Source: Synechococcus sp. HK05 (lineage in GTDB: Bacteria > Cyanobacteriota > Cyanobacteriia > PCC-6307 > Cyanobiaceae). Taken from it: DNA of 37,004 nucleotides. Made by a program: the position numbers and the translations under genes. The stretch spans positions 1-37,004 of the forward strand of contig NZ_JAHRXJ010000003.1 of NCBI RefSeq assembly GCF_019104765.1. The letters are read 5' to 3'. Numbering within the stretch: position 1 is the first letter of the stretch; the number at the start of each line of letters is the position of its first letter. The notes below the pieces were generated by a model. The model was not told where the DNA came from, did no database searches, and saw nothing but the letters and a program-made list of their open reading frames with translations. This document shows, one piece after another, positions 32,858 through 37,004 of this stretch.

Positions 32858-33552
32858 ATCTCCAAACGCCGCCGCTCCTCCTGCAGGCGCGTGCGGCGTT
32901 GCTTGGCTTCGCGCAGCATCTCGCGGCCGTCGCGGAGGTAGCTATCCACGTAGCCCATGGTGTATCGCTCCAGTTCCGTAAGCGCGTCTTGCACCTGGGA
33001 GAGGCAGTGATACACGCTCAGGCTGAAGCCCTGGGCTGAGGCGGGGGCCGCCATCGAGCGATACAGCGCGTCCACCTTCTCCAGCTTCGCCTGGCTCTGC
33101 TCAAGGAAGGTGCAGAAGCTTTCCATCAGCTGATCGTCGTAGGGATCGGCGGAGAGGGCGCGCAGCTGGGCCGGGAAGGGATTGATCACCTGGGCCAGCA
33201 GGCGATCGATCGGGGCGTATACCGTCTGCAGCCAAGCGAGCAGCTCGGCATCGCCGCGGGCAGCCTGGGCTGTGGCCTTGCGGGCAGCGCGGCCTGCGGC
33301 GGCGGAGCGTGCCGAGCGGGCGGAGCCTGCTGTTGTGAGGGGATGGGCGCGGTCATGGGCAGCACGCCTTTCGGCATCGCCCAGCACTTCCCAGGCCGCA
33401 TTGAGCTCCAGGATTCGATGCTCGTCCCCCCCCGCATCAGGGTGGTGCTGCTTCACCAGAGCGCGGTAGGCAGCCTTGATCTCAGCCCCACTGGCCGAGG
33501 CGGCCACCCCAAGTACCTGATACGGGTCGCGAGCAGAAGAAGACCTGGGCAA
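32854..33552 (-). CDS. J-domain (DnaJ-like) protein
   Basis: This 232-residue protein begins with a J domain (about residues 8-68) carrying the essential HPD motif at 37-39 (KQHHPDAGG), which stimulates an Hsp70/DnaK partner. There is no Gly/Phe region or zinc domain, so it is a type III J protein. An alanine-rich linker and a mainly helical, charged C-terminus follow, the latter rich in Arg/Glu (REAKQRRTRLQEERRR). The start is uncertain. TTG at 33552 is used, and GTG at 33573 is possible. The open frame further upstream runs into the porin terminator and should not be coding. Confidence 0.88.
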   Translation of the reverse strand: MPRSSSARDPYQVLGVAASASGAEIKAAYRALVKQHHPDAGGDEHRILELNAAWEVLGDAERRAAHDRAHPLTTAGSARSARSAAAGRAARKATAQAARGDAELLAWLQTVYAPIDRLLAQVINPFPAQLRALSADPYDDQLMESFCTFLEQSQAKLEKVDALYRSMAAPASAQGFSLSVYHCLSQVQDALTELERYTMGYVDSYLRDGREMLREAKQRRTRLQEERRRLEI

Positions 33553-33623
33553 GAGCAGGCAAAGGCAAGCCACATCCTCGCGCCCGAGAACGGGCACCGG
33601 TACCCGGCCTGAAGCGTGGCCAC

Positions 33624-33651
33624 AAAAAAGCCCCCCGCCGAAGCGGGAGGC
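33624..33651 (-). terminator. Rho-independent terminator of the first porin gene
   Basis: Read on the minus strand, GCCTCCCGC-TTCG-GCGGGGGGC (33651-33630, one G-U pair) forms a stable UUCG-tetraloop hairpin followed by six U residues (33629-33624). It lies about 60 bases after the porin stop. Confidence 0.9.
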
Positions 33652-33712
33652 TTGAGTTTTTGGTGTGTGAGTGTGCGCGAGGACGCGCGTGAGGAGTGAG
33701 CGGATCAGACGA
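33652..33712 (-). other. CU-rich 3' untranslated region of the first porin
   Basis: The minus-strand RNA between the porin stop and its terminator contains ACUCCUCAC (33697-33689), a short hairpin with GCGCG/CGCGC arms and a UCCU loop (about 33675-33688), then CUCACAC (33671-33665). ACUCCUCAC matches nine bases of the Yfr1 core ACUCCUCACAC. Confidence 0.4.
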
Positions 33713-35305
33713 TCAGAACTTGAAGCCCACCTGAACCAGGCCACCGAAGGCGTTGAAGGTTTCGCCTTTGGGGGTGTTCTGACCAGCGGGGCGGCTCAGG
33801 TAGATCAGAGCGGGTGTCACGCTGATGTTGTCGGTGACTTGGAAGTTGTACCACCACTCCCAGGCGTAGTTGCCGTCGTAGGGGGTGCTGCCGTCGAAGG
33901 TGGAGGTGGTGAAGGGCGACTGACCCACACCCATACCAGCAGAGTTGCCGTCGACAAAGACGTCATCCCACTGCAGGCCCACCATCCAGGACTGAGCGTT
34001 CTTGGTGTTGATGGCTACTTCGTATCCATCGGTGAAGGTGGTGATCCCCCAGCCGGCACTGATGGAAGGCACCCAGCCGCTCTCAGAGGGCTGCCAGTAA
34101 CCGTTGATAGCGAAGCTATTGGTGGCAGCGCTGCTGCCAAGTTCAGCACACTTGGTCTTGGAGTTGTCGTAGGTGTACTGCGTGCCAGAGCGAATGTTGG
34201 TGCCGCACTGGCCGTAGCGATAAGCACCGGTCAGGGCCCAACCCTTACCAGCACCACCGAGCTGAGCCAGGAAGGATCCAGCCGAGTTATCGGTCATGAT
34301 GCCGCCCTCGTCAGGGTTGCCTTTCTGAGCGTTCTTCGCCACATAGTTCACAGCAGCGGCAAGATAGGGATTACCCTTCTTCACCTTTTGCTTCCAAACC
34401 AGACCCACACCAGAGCCGGTTTCCTTGTTGTAGGTACCGGAGGTGCCGTAGGTGCCGTAGAGGAAGTCGGTGATGTACGACTTGTAGGCGGAGGGAGTGA
34501 TCGCCAGCATCTCGGTGTTACGAACACGAGCACCAAGGGTCGCCTTCAGTTCGTTACCGACCGGGAAGGTGTAGTACAGACGGTCAATGTCGACCACATT
34601 GGGTCCAGCCTCAGACTCGAACGACTTATCGAGCTTGGTGGAGCGGTACTGACCGCCGTCAAAGGCTGAGTTGGCGTAGTTACCGGCGCGCAGACGGGTG
34701 CGCAGCAGGTCCTTACCGGTGAAGCTGGTGTCGAAGTTCAGACGAACTTGGTAGTTGAACACCATGGCGTCGAGCAGGCTCTCACCATCCAGGCCGGGGC
34801 CGGTGTTGCCGTTCTTGGCCGAACCGCCGTAGGTGTAGGCACCGATGTCAAAGGTGGCTTCACCCTTGAGCTTGGTGGTGGTGGAGAACTGGGTGGCTTC
34901 CAGCTCAGCAACCTTGGCCTCGAGGCCATCCACGCGGCCCTTCAGAACGGCGAGTTCCTTTTCGAACTCCTTCATCAGGCGCTTCAGCTCGTCGGTCACT
35001 TCAGTGATCCGGTCGAGGCAAGCGTTCAGCAGGGCGGCCGCTTCAAAACGGGTCATCGCACGGCTGCCGCGGTAGGTGCCGTTGGGGTAGCCGGCCACAC
35101 AGCCGTAGCGCTCGATCAGGTTGCTCAGAGCCTGATAAGCCCAGTCGGTGGGCTGCACATCGGAGAACTGGGTGATCGAAGTCACCTGCTCCTCAGAGCC
35201 GTACTGGCTGACGCCAGCGATGTTGAGTTCAGAGGCAGATGCAGCCACGGGAGCCATCAGGCCCAGGGCAGCAGGTGCCAGAAGAAGCTTCTGGAACAGT
35301 TTCAT
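33713..35305 (-). CDS. SLH-domain outer-membrane porin (Som/OprB-type)
   Basis: This 530-residue outer-membrane porin has a signal peptide (1-25, ending AASAS) and an S-layer-homology domain at about 47-97 (FSDVQPTDWAYQALSNLIER, YRGSRAMTRFEAAALL) that anchors to the peptidoglycan. A coiled coil occupies about 98-138 (EFEKELAVLKGRVDGLEAKV), followed by an OprB-type beta barrel ending in the aromatic GFKF. Carbohydrate, iron or general solute uptake are possible. The ATG at 35305 has a strong site, GAGG, two bases before it (GTGTGAGGACC then ATG). The frame is open upstream, but the extra residues precede a classical signal peptide and are not used. It ends with its own terminator. Confidence 0.95.
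   Translation of the reverse strand: MKLFQKLLLAPAALGLMAPVAASASELNIAGVSQYGSEEQVTSITQFSDVQPTDWAYQALSNLIERYGCVAGYPNGTYRGSRAMTRFEAAALLNACLDRITEVTDELKRLMKEFEKELAVLKGRVDGLEAKVAELEATQFSTTTKLKGEATFDIGAYTYGGSAKNGNTGPGLDGESLLDAMVFNYQVRLNFDTSFTGKDLLRTRLRAGNYANSAFDGGQYRSTKLDKSFESEAGPNVVDIDRLYYTFPVGNELKATLGARVRNTEMLAITPSAYKSYITDFLYGTYGTSGTYNKETGSGVGLVWKQKVKKGNPYLAAAVNYVAKNAQKGNPDEGGIMTDNSAGSFLAQLGGAGKGWALTGAYRYGQCGTNIRSGTQYTYDNSKTKCAELGSSAATNSFAINGYWQPSESGWVPSISAGWGITTFTDGYEVAINTKNAQSWMVGLQWDDVFVDGNSAGMGVGQSPFTTSTFDGSTPYDGNYAWEWWYNFQVTDNISVTPALIYLSRPAGQNTPKGETFNAFGGLVQVGFKF
34869..35144 (-). repeat. Near-identical duplicated block (porin copy 1)
   Basis: This 276-bp block repeats at 36729-37004 with three mismatches (34946, and one each near 34985 and 35048). 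It encodes the SLH domain end and the coiled coil of both porins, and the 94 protein residues are identical. The match continues to the window edge, so the second copy may be longer. Confidence 0.95.
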
Positions 35306-35317
35306 GGTCCTCACACC
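35306..35317 (-). promoter_or_regulatory. Ribosome-binding region complementary to the Yfr1 sRNA core
   Basis: The porin mRNA reads GGUGUGAGGACC just before AUG. GUGUGAGGA (35316-35308) pairs perfectly over nine bases with UCCUCACAC, part of the conserved unpaired core ACUCCUCACAC of the cyanobacterial small RNA Yfr1. It covers the Shine-Dalgarno GAGG. In Prochlorococcus, Yfr1 is reported to target the start region of porin mRNAs. Confidence 0.55.
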
Positions 35318-35362
35318 AATTGAGGGAATTCCTGAACCAAGGCACAGGAATGGGCCGACGTT

Positions 35363-35391
35363 ACCGGTGAGATGACACCGCAAAACCGGTG
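35363..35391. promoter_or_regulatory. Three alternating half-sites upstream of the porin (possible operator)
   Basis: CGGTG (35365-35369), CACCG (35376-35380) and CGGTG (35387-35391) alternate in orientation with an exact 11-base spacing. Two of them sit in ACCGGT palindromes (35363-35368 and 35385-35390). The site lies about 60-85 bases upstream of the porin start codon. The factor is unknown. Confidence 0.35.
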
Positions 35392-35445
35392 CGGAACACC
35401 ATCAGATGTGCCCTGCGCTACAACTCCTGATGATGGCTTGACAAG

Positions 35446-35472
35446 AAAAAAGCCCTGGCCGAAGCCAGGGCT
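35446..35472 (-). terminator. Rho-independent terminator of the second porin gene
   Basis: On the minus strand AGCCCTGGC-TTCG-GCCAGGGCT (35472-35451) is a perfect 9-bp stem with a UUCG loop, followed by a U-run (35451-35446). Confidence 0.92.
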
Positions 35473-35548
35473 GATCACGAGGAATGAGGACTGTGTGAGG
35501 AAAGAGCTCGAAAAGTGTGAGAAACGAGCTCTGTTTGAGATCAAACGA
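35473..35548 (-). ncRNA. Yfr1-like 3'UTR module of the second porin (candidate 3'UTR-derived sRNA)
   Basis: On the minus-strand RNA, an 8-bp stem AGAGCUCG/CGAGCUCU (35532-35525 and 35510-35503) closes a 14-base loop containing CUCACAC. The unpaired stretch that follows carries UCCUCACAC (35501-35493) and two more UCCUC-like elements, then the terminator. Hairpin, unpaired UCCUCACAC and terminator hairpin is the Yfr1 layout. UCCUCACAC also matches the neighbouring porin's ribosome-binding region perfectly. Expression as a separate RNA is not shown by the sequence. Confidence 0.4.
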
Positions 35549-37004
35549 TCAGAACTTGAAGGTGGTCTTGACGATACCACCGAAGTTGTTGAGAGGAGCG
35601 CTGTCGTTCTTACGACCGTTGTCCAGCCAACCGAGGTGACCCAGGGGGTTGGAGAGGTAGTAAAGGGCGGGGGTCACGCTGATGTTGTCGGTGACCTGGA
35701 ACTTGTACCACCATTCCCAAGCCCAGTTGCCGTCCTTGGGCGAGTCGCCGCAGATCGCATTGCGGCCCTTGTTGAGGTTGCCGCAGGCGGTCAGGAAGGT
35801 GGGCTGACCCAGAGCCATACCCAGGGCGTTGCCCTTGATGAAAGCGTCGTCCCACTGAAGACCGACATACCAGCTGTTGGCAGTCGCGCCGTCGAAGTCG
35901 AAGGCGTTGTCATCGGTGCTGTAACCGGTGATGCCCCAGCCAGCACTGATGGAGGGGATAAAGCCGCTCTCAGAGGGCTGCCAATAGGCGCTCACTGCAA
36001 CAGAGTTGTTGCTGCCGGAAGCCACACCCAGAAGAACGGAGGCGGGGGTACCAGAGGCAGGGCCTACACCGTTGCCGTAGTTGTAAGCAACAGCTGCTCC
36101 GAAGTTGTTACCCGCGTAGCCAATCTGAGCGGTGAAGGTCTGGTTGGCACCATCGGTACCGATGCCACCCTCGTTGGGATCACCAATCTGAGCGTTAGAA
36201 GACACGTAGTTGAGGCTGAAGCTCCAACCGTTGTCCTGGTACCACACACCAGCACCAGCACCCAGGTTCAGGCTGTAGGTACCAGGGGAGCCGGCATAGG
36301 TGAAGACGTCGAGGACGGTGTCAGCGGGATACACGCTGGGCCACATAGCCAGCATGTCGTCCTGACGGACACGGCCACCGAAGGTAACGGTGACTTTATC
36401 GCCAACGGGGAACTGGTAGAAGAGGCGGTTGATGCCTACGGTGTTACCACCGGGAACTTCACCTTCCTGGAAGGCCACTTCCAGAGCGTTCAGAGCGGTG
36501 TTGGCGCCGTTAGCGCCAACAGGCTGACCGCTCCAAGGAGAGGCTCCAAAGTTACCGGCACGCAGGGTGGTGCGCAGCAGGTCCTTACCGGTGAAGCTGG
36601 TGTCGAAGTTCAGACGAACGTCATAAGCAAAGGCGGCAGCACCAGTGCCGGCCTTGGCATCGTCAACGATGCGGCTGTTGCTACCGCCGTAGGCGTTACC
36701 GCCCAGCACGAAGGTGGCAATACCCTTCAGCTTGGTGGTGGTGGAGAACTGGGTGGCTTCCAGCTCAGCAACCTTGGCCTCGAGGCCATCCACGCGGCCC
36801 TTCAGTACGGCGAGTTCCTTTTCGAACTCCTTCATCAGGCGCTTTAGCTCGTCGGTCACTTCAGTGATCCGGTCGAGGCAAGCGTTCAGCAGGGCGGCCG
36901 CTTCAAAGCGGGTCATCGCACGGCTGCCGCGGTAGGTGCCGTTGGGGTAGCCGGCCACACAGCCGTAGCGCTCGATCAGGTTGCTCAGAGCCTGATAAGC
37001 CCAG
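35549..37004 (-). CDS. SLH-domain outer-membrane porin, second copy (5' end beyond the window)
   Basis: The visible 484 residues start inside the SLH domain (WAYQALSNLIERYGC, from 37003) and continue through the coiled coil and an OprB-type barrel to the terminal TFKF. The first ~94 visible residues are identical to porin 1, while the barrel has diverged in loops but keeps blocks such as VRLNFDTSFTGKDLLRT, WQPSESG and WAWEWWY. The signal peptide and start are beyond the right edge. It lies directly upstream of porin 1 on the same strand and has its own terminator. Confidence 0.95.
   Translation of the reverse strand, partial: WAYQALSNLIERYGCVAGYPNGTYRGSRAMTRFEAAALLNACLDRITEVTDELKRLMKEFEKELAVLKGRVDGLEAKVAELEATQFSTTTKLKGIATFVLGGNAYGGSNSRIVDDAKAGTGAAAFAYDVRLNFDTSFTGKDLLRTTLRAGNFGASPWSGQPVGANGANTALNALEVAFQEGEVPGGNTVGINRLFYQFPVGDKVTVTFGGRVRQDDMLAMWPSVYPADTVLDVFTYAGSPGTYSLNLGAGAGVWYQDNGWSFSLNYVSSNAQIGDPNEGGIGTDGANQTFTAQIGYAGNNFGAAVAYNYGNGVGPASGTPASVLLGVASGSNNSVAVSAYWQPSESGFIPSISAGWGITGYSTDDNAFDFDGATANSWYVGLQWDDAFIKGNALGMALGQPTFLTACGNLNKGRNAICGDSPKDGNWAWEWWYKFQVTDNISVTPALYYLSNPLGHLGWLDNGRKNDSAPLNNFGGIVKTTFKF
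36729..37004 (-). repeat. Near-identical duplicated block (porin copy 2)
   Basis: This is the partner of the block at 34869-35144, with three mismatches in 276 bp. The duplication reaches the window edge and may extend to the signal-peptide region. Confidence 0.95.

Follow-up and report, generated by a model that had tools for sequence, protein, structure and literature searches.

Based on the collective evidence from one porin locus and its relatives, the 3′ untranslated regions (3′UTRs) of porin mRNAs in one cyanobacterial family contain a real, conserved and structured RNA element that has no entry in Rfam. As we read it, such a 3′UTR displays the core of the small RNA (sRNA) Yfr1 (CUCACAC, often CCUCACACA) in a hairpin loop, and often has a further C/U-rich word of like kind ahead of the terminator. 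To this element we assign, at a probability of about 0.5 and on sequence grounds, a negative feedback on porin synthesis through pairing of CUCACAC with GUGUGAGG; the porin messages would probably help to limit their own production.

The element came to light in a 37,004-nucleotide stretch of Synechococcus sp. HK05 DNA (hereafter, the window), closed on the minus strand by two tandem genes for SLH/OprB-type porins, separated by the upstream gene's 3′UTR and the downstream gene's leader (Table 1). The two porins are paralogues with 61% identity; the upstream one, which we take to be of the Som type, has its stop codon at 35551-35549 on the minus strand. Across roughly their first hundred codons the porin paralogues of this genome are near-identical (36740-37004; ends of contigs C4, C5 and C7), and four contig ends lie inside porin genes, as expected if the assembly broke at the porin repeat.

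Table 1. Features of the porin locus at the end of the window.
Feature	Position	Strand	Basis and remarks
Upstream porin, SLH/OprB-like	35549..37004	-	ORF 35549-37003, open at contig end; 5′ part cut by contig end
3′UTR hairpin, 8-bp stem, 14-nt loop UUUCUCACACUUUU	35503..35532	-	Fold; 19.8-bit match to model R1; stem covariation across relatives
CUCACAC core in hairpin loop	35515..35521	-	Sequence; invariant in 23 aligned hairpins (chosen for holding CUCACAC)
Second core UCCUCACAC, unpaired	35493..35501	-	Sequence; fold
Intrinsic terminator, 9-bp stem and T run	35445..35472	-	Stem 35472-35451, T run after it
GUGUGAGGA over Shine-Dalgarno of downstream porin	35308..35316	-	Complementary to Yfr1 and to the 3′UTR core; GTGTGAGG in 83 of 89 porin leaders
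Downstream porin	33713..35305	-	ORF listing; ATG 35305-35303
Downstream porin 3′UTR: CACUCCUCAC and ACUCACACACC, then terminator	33628..33712	-	Sequence; Yfr2 match; terminator

A preliminary description of this DNA had proposed that the 3′UTR of the upstream porin forms, in this order, a hairpin of 8 bp whose loop holds CUCACAC, a single-stranded UCCUCACAC and a terminator hairpin, and both the sequence and the minimum-free-energy fold (-36.9 kcal/mol; z -4.8; none of 200 shuffles equally good) bear this out. The fold further comprises a 5-bp hairpin immediately downstream of the stop codon, with a 4-bp helix enclosing both, features absent from that description. While one copy of the core sits in the loop, the UCCUCACAC copy is left unpaired between a hairpin and a terminator that are 30 nt apart (26 of them unpaired, four in the closing helix). 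The claim that UCCUCACAC is the complement of GUGUGAGGA over the Shine-Dalgarno of the next porin is likewise correct in sequence. Counted on both strands of the genome, TCCTCACAC occurs 12 times and its reversed control seven times; the lone 9-mer match is of little weight, and its significance comes from the relatives. The downstream porin has a 3′UTR of a different type, built from CACUCCUCACGCGC, a short GC repeat, ACUCACACACC and a terminator, which is kept with small changes in relatives such as L030, L033, L042 and L043. Its CACUCCUCAC, at 33698-33689, matches a 10-nt stretch of Yfr1 exactly, and its ACUCACACACC has the core at 33671-33665.

Conservation in relatives, which the preliminary description had named as a check, was assessed on porin loci from 25 genomes of the genus (21 with a match, part of their loci being taken) together with 75 named loci that include Vulcanococcus, Cyanobium and Synechococcus records. 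These yielded 144 porin ORF ends with a stop codon, 126 distinct 3′UTRs of at least 100 nt and, among them, 93 with a T5 run within 170 nt. The module is conserved: CTCACAC occurs in 54 of the 93 3′UTRs with a T run, compared to a mean of 5.0 and a maximum of 12 in 200 dinucleotide shuffles, and in 48 of 83 after removal of near-duplicates (4.5 expected from dinucleotide shuffles). Within the window and the named loci, the motif lies no more than 100 nt upstream of 40 of 77 porin terminators, as against 1 of 36 others. The lone non-porin terminator with the motif (locus L049) was considered as an exception and rejected as such, for it sits in a long porin 3′UTR. The presence of the motif in porin 3′UTRs is not due to chance. 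At least two CUCAC words are found in 28 of the 54 motif-bearing 3′UTRs, and the mean unpaired probability of the core in computed folds is 0.92 (64 copies), compared to 0.48 for other 7-mers. Two close relatives carry variants of the core, namely UUCACAC and CUCACGC in place of CUCACAC at L016 and CUCAUAC in the loop at L019.

The motif stands in a structured context with clear covariation. In 28 3′UTRs, six or more base pairs close a loop, 16 nt long at most, that contains CUCACAC; these 28 hairpins have 23 different 5′ arms, with 4 to 6 pair types at each of the six loop-proximal pairs. A stem of at least 8 bp surrounds the motif in 21 of 55 motif-bearing 3′UTRs, against a mean of 0.6 and a maximum of 4 when the flanks are shuffled. 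Since a MAFFT alignment of 23 hairpins left the stems out of register, a covariance model (R1) was built from eight hairpins of equal geometry; these were selected for having motif and stem, a selection that the flank shuffles address. In the 37 matches realigned with R1 (29 of them distinct), a set that is fitted to the model and includes a few non-porin matches, the covariation score is 0.990, compared to 0.262 in shuffled alignments, and none of 500 shuffles reaches it. A slide of the pairing partner by a single column abolishes the score. The number of pairs changed on both sides, counted in alignment A3, is not above that in shuffles (231 of 500 reach it). The hairpin of the window is itself a weak match to R1; in its own genome it falls below the E 0.1 level, which a non-porin hairpin reaches there.

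The same evidence bears on the caution, expressed in the preliminary description, that part of the match might be trivial because CCUC is a plain anti-Shine-Dalgarno. A functionless origin in anti-Shine-Dalgarno likeness or in the C/U-rich composition of the 3′UTR would draw on CCUC being the anti-Shine-Dalgarno core and on energies of pairing that some Shine-Dalgarno-like controls equal. We consider it scarcely probable at all, because dinucleotide shuffles, flank shuffles, covariation and the non-porin terminators all oppose it, and the word kept in evolution, CUCACAC, has a CACAC part that falls outside a Shine-Dalgarno.

Under stricter filters and at E ≤0.02, R1 has matches in 45 of 300 genomes of the family, belonging to 10 of 59 genera; the genome of the window has none, either in this search or in that of the phylum. 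Direct inspection of 30 loci from the family search placed 29 immediately after a porin stop codon, the porin upstream being confirmed by reading frames where the gene was frameshifted (L198) or at a contig edge (L213); the remaining match (L215) does not follow a porin. With the apparent training copies among the 30 left out (L175, L196, L197, L199, L202, L205 and L209), 22 of 23 loci follow a porin. One of the matches examined (L183) lacks CTCACAC at the matched site. Within the genus, 8 of 10 matches at E ≤0.02, and 9 of 20 at E ≤0.1, follow porins. The phylum sample gave a match in one of 194 genomes (L252), with no porin-like ORF near it, and CTCACAC was found in none of the 29 porin-like 3′UTRs of that sample, two of which come from the same family. 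Two loci of Synechococcus WH7803 gave no R1 match. The porin element is, in these samples, confined to one cyanobacterial family and is patchy within it. At one locus of WH7803, a marine strain (L069, after 7617), the porin 3′UTR has CCUCACACA and CUUCACACAC, judged by eye to lie apparently after a hairpin and not in its loop.

The core of the 3′UTR element is that of Yfr1, as the preliminary description had it. The genome has its genuine Yfr1 elsewhere (G000:C9; 65.2 bits; core CACUCCUCACACC), and on contig C11 it has Rfam Cyano-1, which we take to be Yfr2, with GUGUGAGGAGUG, which complements the Yfr1 core perfectly. The Yfr1 and Yfr2 of the genome carry CUCCUCACAC and GUGUGAGGAG, respectively, and UCCUCACAC together with its next base (35492) makes a 10-nt complement of Yfr2. 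The hallmark of Yfr1 is a pair of stem-loops that flank a single-stranded section of 16-20 nt containing the undecanucleotide ACUCCUCACAC (PMC2190773). That full 11-nt core is present in only 1 of the 93 porin 3′UTRs, and the porin element is therefore not a Yfr1 gene. The candidate of a Yfr1 gene in the 3′UTR of the window was also rejected there: no model match was obtained at the gathering score, and ACUCCUCACAC is absent from the window, which has UUUCCUCACAC. Across the whole window, and in the eight loci with the clearest hairpins, not one Rfam family attains its gathering cut-off; for RF01116 (Yfr1), relaxing the threshold to E 10 still gave no match within 33600-35600. The likeness to Yfr1 consists in an exposed core (CUCCUCACAC/CUCACAC), flanked by a 5′ hairpin and a terminator, that is complementary to the porin ribosome-binding site (RBS); the difference is that Yfr1 is a free-standing RNA, an abundant transcript of 54-69 nt, with its core in a single-stranded linker, whereas the porin 3′UTR has a copy in a hairpin loop.

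Through this core, the porin element would act by base pairing with GUGUGAGG, a sequence that two sorts of transcript in the genome present at suitable positions: porin mRNAs, both of the element's own kind and of its neighbour's, at the RBS, and the sRNA Yfr2. When the Prochlorococcus RNAs were assayed with reporters in E. coli, Yfr1 repressed the PMM1121 porin leader 4.7-fold and Yfr2 restored expression (PMC6778093). A core placed in the porin mRNA would hence be expected to repress by either route: directly, by pairing with porin leaders, or indirectly, by pairing with Yfr2 so that Yfr1 is freed to repress porin translation. By one route or both, more porin mRNA would lead to less porin translation. 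The pairing in the cell, whether within the mRNA or by a released 3′UTR fragment, and the repression that would result are what we infer.

Evidence for the leader as partner comes from the distribution of its complement. Among 91 porins, two were dropped for want of an SLH anchor, and 83 of the remaining 89, in which the genome of the window is represented only by the downstream porin, have GTGTGAGG before the start codon. In that genome, GTGTGAGG is also present in the 5′ fragment of a porin gene cut by the contig C7 end; the counterpart at the contig C4 end carries GATATGAGG in that place. The earlier suggestion that one porin paralogue could regulate the other agrees with the complementarity to the RBS of the neighbour (9 nt with the downstream porin), but it is too narrow, the target not being neighbour-specific. 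The corresponding match of the upstream porin to its own leader may be deduced from the contig C7 end. CTCACAC is present in the 3′UTR of 49 of the 83 porins with the GTGTGAGG leader and in none of the six without (p 0.007, from start calls corrected post hoc; p 0.13 with the earlier, misassigned starts). The six porins that have no leader site also have no terminator close by, and they could form a subclass of their own; the leader site is present in every one of the 78 porins that do have a terminator. Given these facts, and that the sequences are related, the link between leader and 3′UTR is no more than suggestive, fitting pairing with porin leaders of the element's own kind as much as with those of the neighbour.

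The bases flanking the core are less accommodating to any single partner. In 26 of 41 cases, the base preceding CCUCACAC could form a pair with the leader of its own porin; Yfr2 shares that partner base, so the position does not decide between the partners. Among 58 non-redundant cases, 47 have A directly after CUCACAC. The G common in leaders would need a C there, and 12 of 56 cases would pair; most leaders would fail to pair with the A, not every Yfr2 copy would pair with it either, and it does not follow the variable neighbouring base of Yfr2. This prevalent A, for which no RNA partner accounts, and the combination of a constant loop with a stem free to vary would both be explained if the loop were a binding site for a protein (e.g., an RRM-type Rbp) that stabilises or localises the porin mRNA, the likeness to Yfr1 then arising from a shared protein. 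Protein binding was named as an alternative for the Yfr1 core by Voss et al. 2007 (PMC2190773). We hold this to be distinctly unlikely for the porin element, considering that 83 of 89 porin leaders hold an exact complement of the core and that Yfr1 reportedly exerts its effect on a leader of this sort through pairing.

Further 5′, the base before TCCTCAC tends to fit Yfr2. In non-redundant 3′UTRs (n = 36), it is C in 23 cases, T in 11 and G in two, at a 3′UTR composition of 39% C and 23% G; C is the base found in Yfr1 and in the complement of Yfr2, and G that in the common leader complement. Correspondingly, CACTCCTCAC occurs in 8 of 83 3′UTRs (0.2 expected) and GGTCCTCAC in one. Within the same genome, the longest complement of the 3′UTR to Yfr2 exceeds that to the leader in 16 of 23 3′UTRs, equals it in seven and is shorter in none, a comparison that favours Yfr2 by design, as a stretch of 72 nt of Yfr2 was set against one 20-nt leader consensus for all genomes, and in which a few of the longest Yfr2 matches lie outside the core. 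Together these trends would support a Yfr1 mimic that mainly captures Yfr2, such that the abundant porin mRNA frees Yfr1 for porins and other targets. As an account of the main function it appears to us somewhat unlikely: besides the bias just described, the unpaired copy in the window has U, not C, before UCCUCAC, and the A after the core does not track the Yfr2 base. The core of Yfr2, moreover, costs 7.8 kcal/mol to open, and in the computed pairing of the 3′UTR with Yfr2, as in that with the C7 leader, the best site uses a neighbouring CCUCAU word and not the core. Were capture nonetheless to take place, the three RNAs could form a circuit within the one family in which the Yfr1 mimic of the porin mRNA occupies Yfr2, the natural antagonist of Yfr1, so that the level of porin mRNA would determine how much Yfr1 is active and thereby how far porins and other Yfr1 targets are translated; this extended circuit we regard as unlikely.

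Interaction prediction, also called for in the preliminary description, did not make the porin leader stand out. Pairing of the 3′UTR with the downstream leader is computed at -7.2 kcal/mol net (-8.5 for Yfr1 with this leader); five of 50 Shine-Dalgarno-like control leaders do better than -7.2. The pairing energies, as modelled, do not discriminate between partners. The predicted pairing with the downstream leader also stops at 9 bp, and this counts against a stable sRNA, freed from the porin 3′UTR by RNase E or started at an internal promoter, that acts in trans to repress mRNAs of porins and of other genes; a simple sigma-70 scan, furthermore, found no promoter-like site in 33550-35800. A hairpin, an exposed seed and a strong terminator are the usual anatomy of 3′UTR-derived sRNAs, and all three are present here. 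Such an sRNA, which would be compatible with the feedback on porin synthesis, is a tentative yet credible possibility.

The proposed negative feedback has precedents in other bacteria. OppZ and CarZ of Vibrio cholerae are processed from 3′UTRs and repress their own transcripts (PMC7398697). The porin element resembles them as an mRNA 3′UTR element expected to repress its own translation; it differs in that processing and repression have been demonstrated in Vibrio, while the porin element is known from sequence and its repression would follow by analogy. In C-rich loop antisense RNAs (RNAIII of S. aureus, the cuckoo RNAs of alphaproteobacteria), a hairpin loop offers a CCUC-type seed to the RBS, as the porin loop would; these RNAs belong to other phyla, and the window has only sub-threshold matches to SorX (23.6 bits at a cut-off of 46.6; E 0.008) and to a betaproteobacterial sRNA (26.2 bits at a cut-off of 50; E 0.014). 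In Prochlorococcus MED4, the earliest Yfr1 targets to be demonstrated were two porin mRNAs (PMC6778093). A search of the open-licence literature (titles and abstract openings) found no porin-3′UTR element of this kind, which is weak evidence of absence. Our study has importance in presenting an RNA element new to Rfam 15, where it has no listing, and in showing the Yfr1 core, present in nearly all cyanobacteria, to be carried by porin mRNAs themselves, on a hairpin that covaries, in numerous members of one family. The feedback circuit would link Yfr1, Yfr2 and the composition of the outer membrane, and it is testable.

The Yfr1 core is also met on RNAs other than Yfr1 and the porin messages. 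This core, or a variant, is found in Yfr10, Yfr12 and Yfr18, which are separate genes beside Yfr2 homologues in MED4 (PMC2518516). They have in common with the porin element a Yfr1 core on an otherwise different RNA, and they differ from it as separate sRNA genes, not porin 3′UTRs, in the account of PMC2518516. Four genomes of the genus have a weak second Yfr1-like copy with the core UUCCUCACACCC or CUCCUCACACCC (L171, L172, L173 and L174, near 1500), perhaps of the Yfr10 kind. A second hairpin type, GGGCYGC-ACUCCUCACACC-GCRGCCC, has the Yfr1 core in its loop and does not follow a porin; it was observed at seven loci in five genomes of the genus (G000:C4:479315-479338 (-); L184, L185, L186, L188, L191, L193 and L194, near 1500), and the frames at two of these (L185 and L188) show a small, uncharacterised ORF (SVFFCDxxRCSIQPVRAMDP...) that the hairpin either overlaps or precedes.
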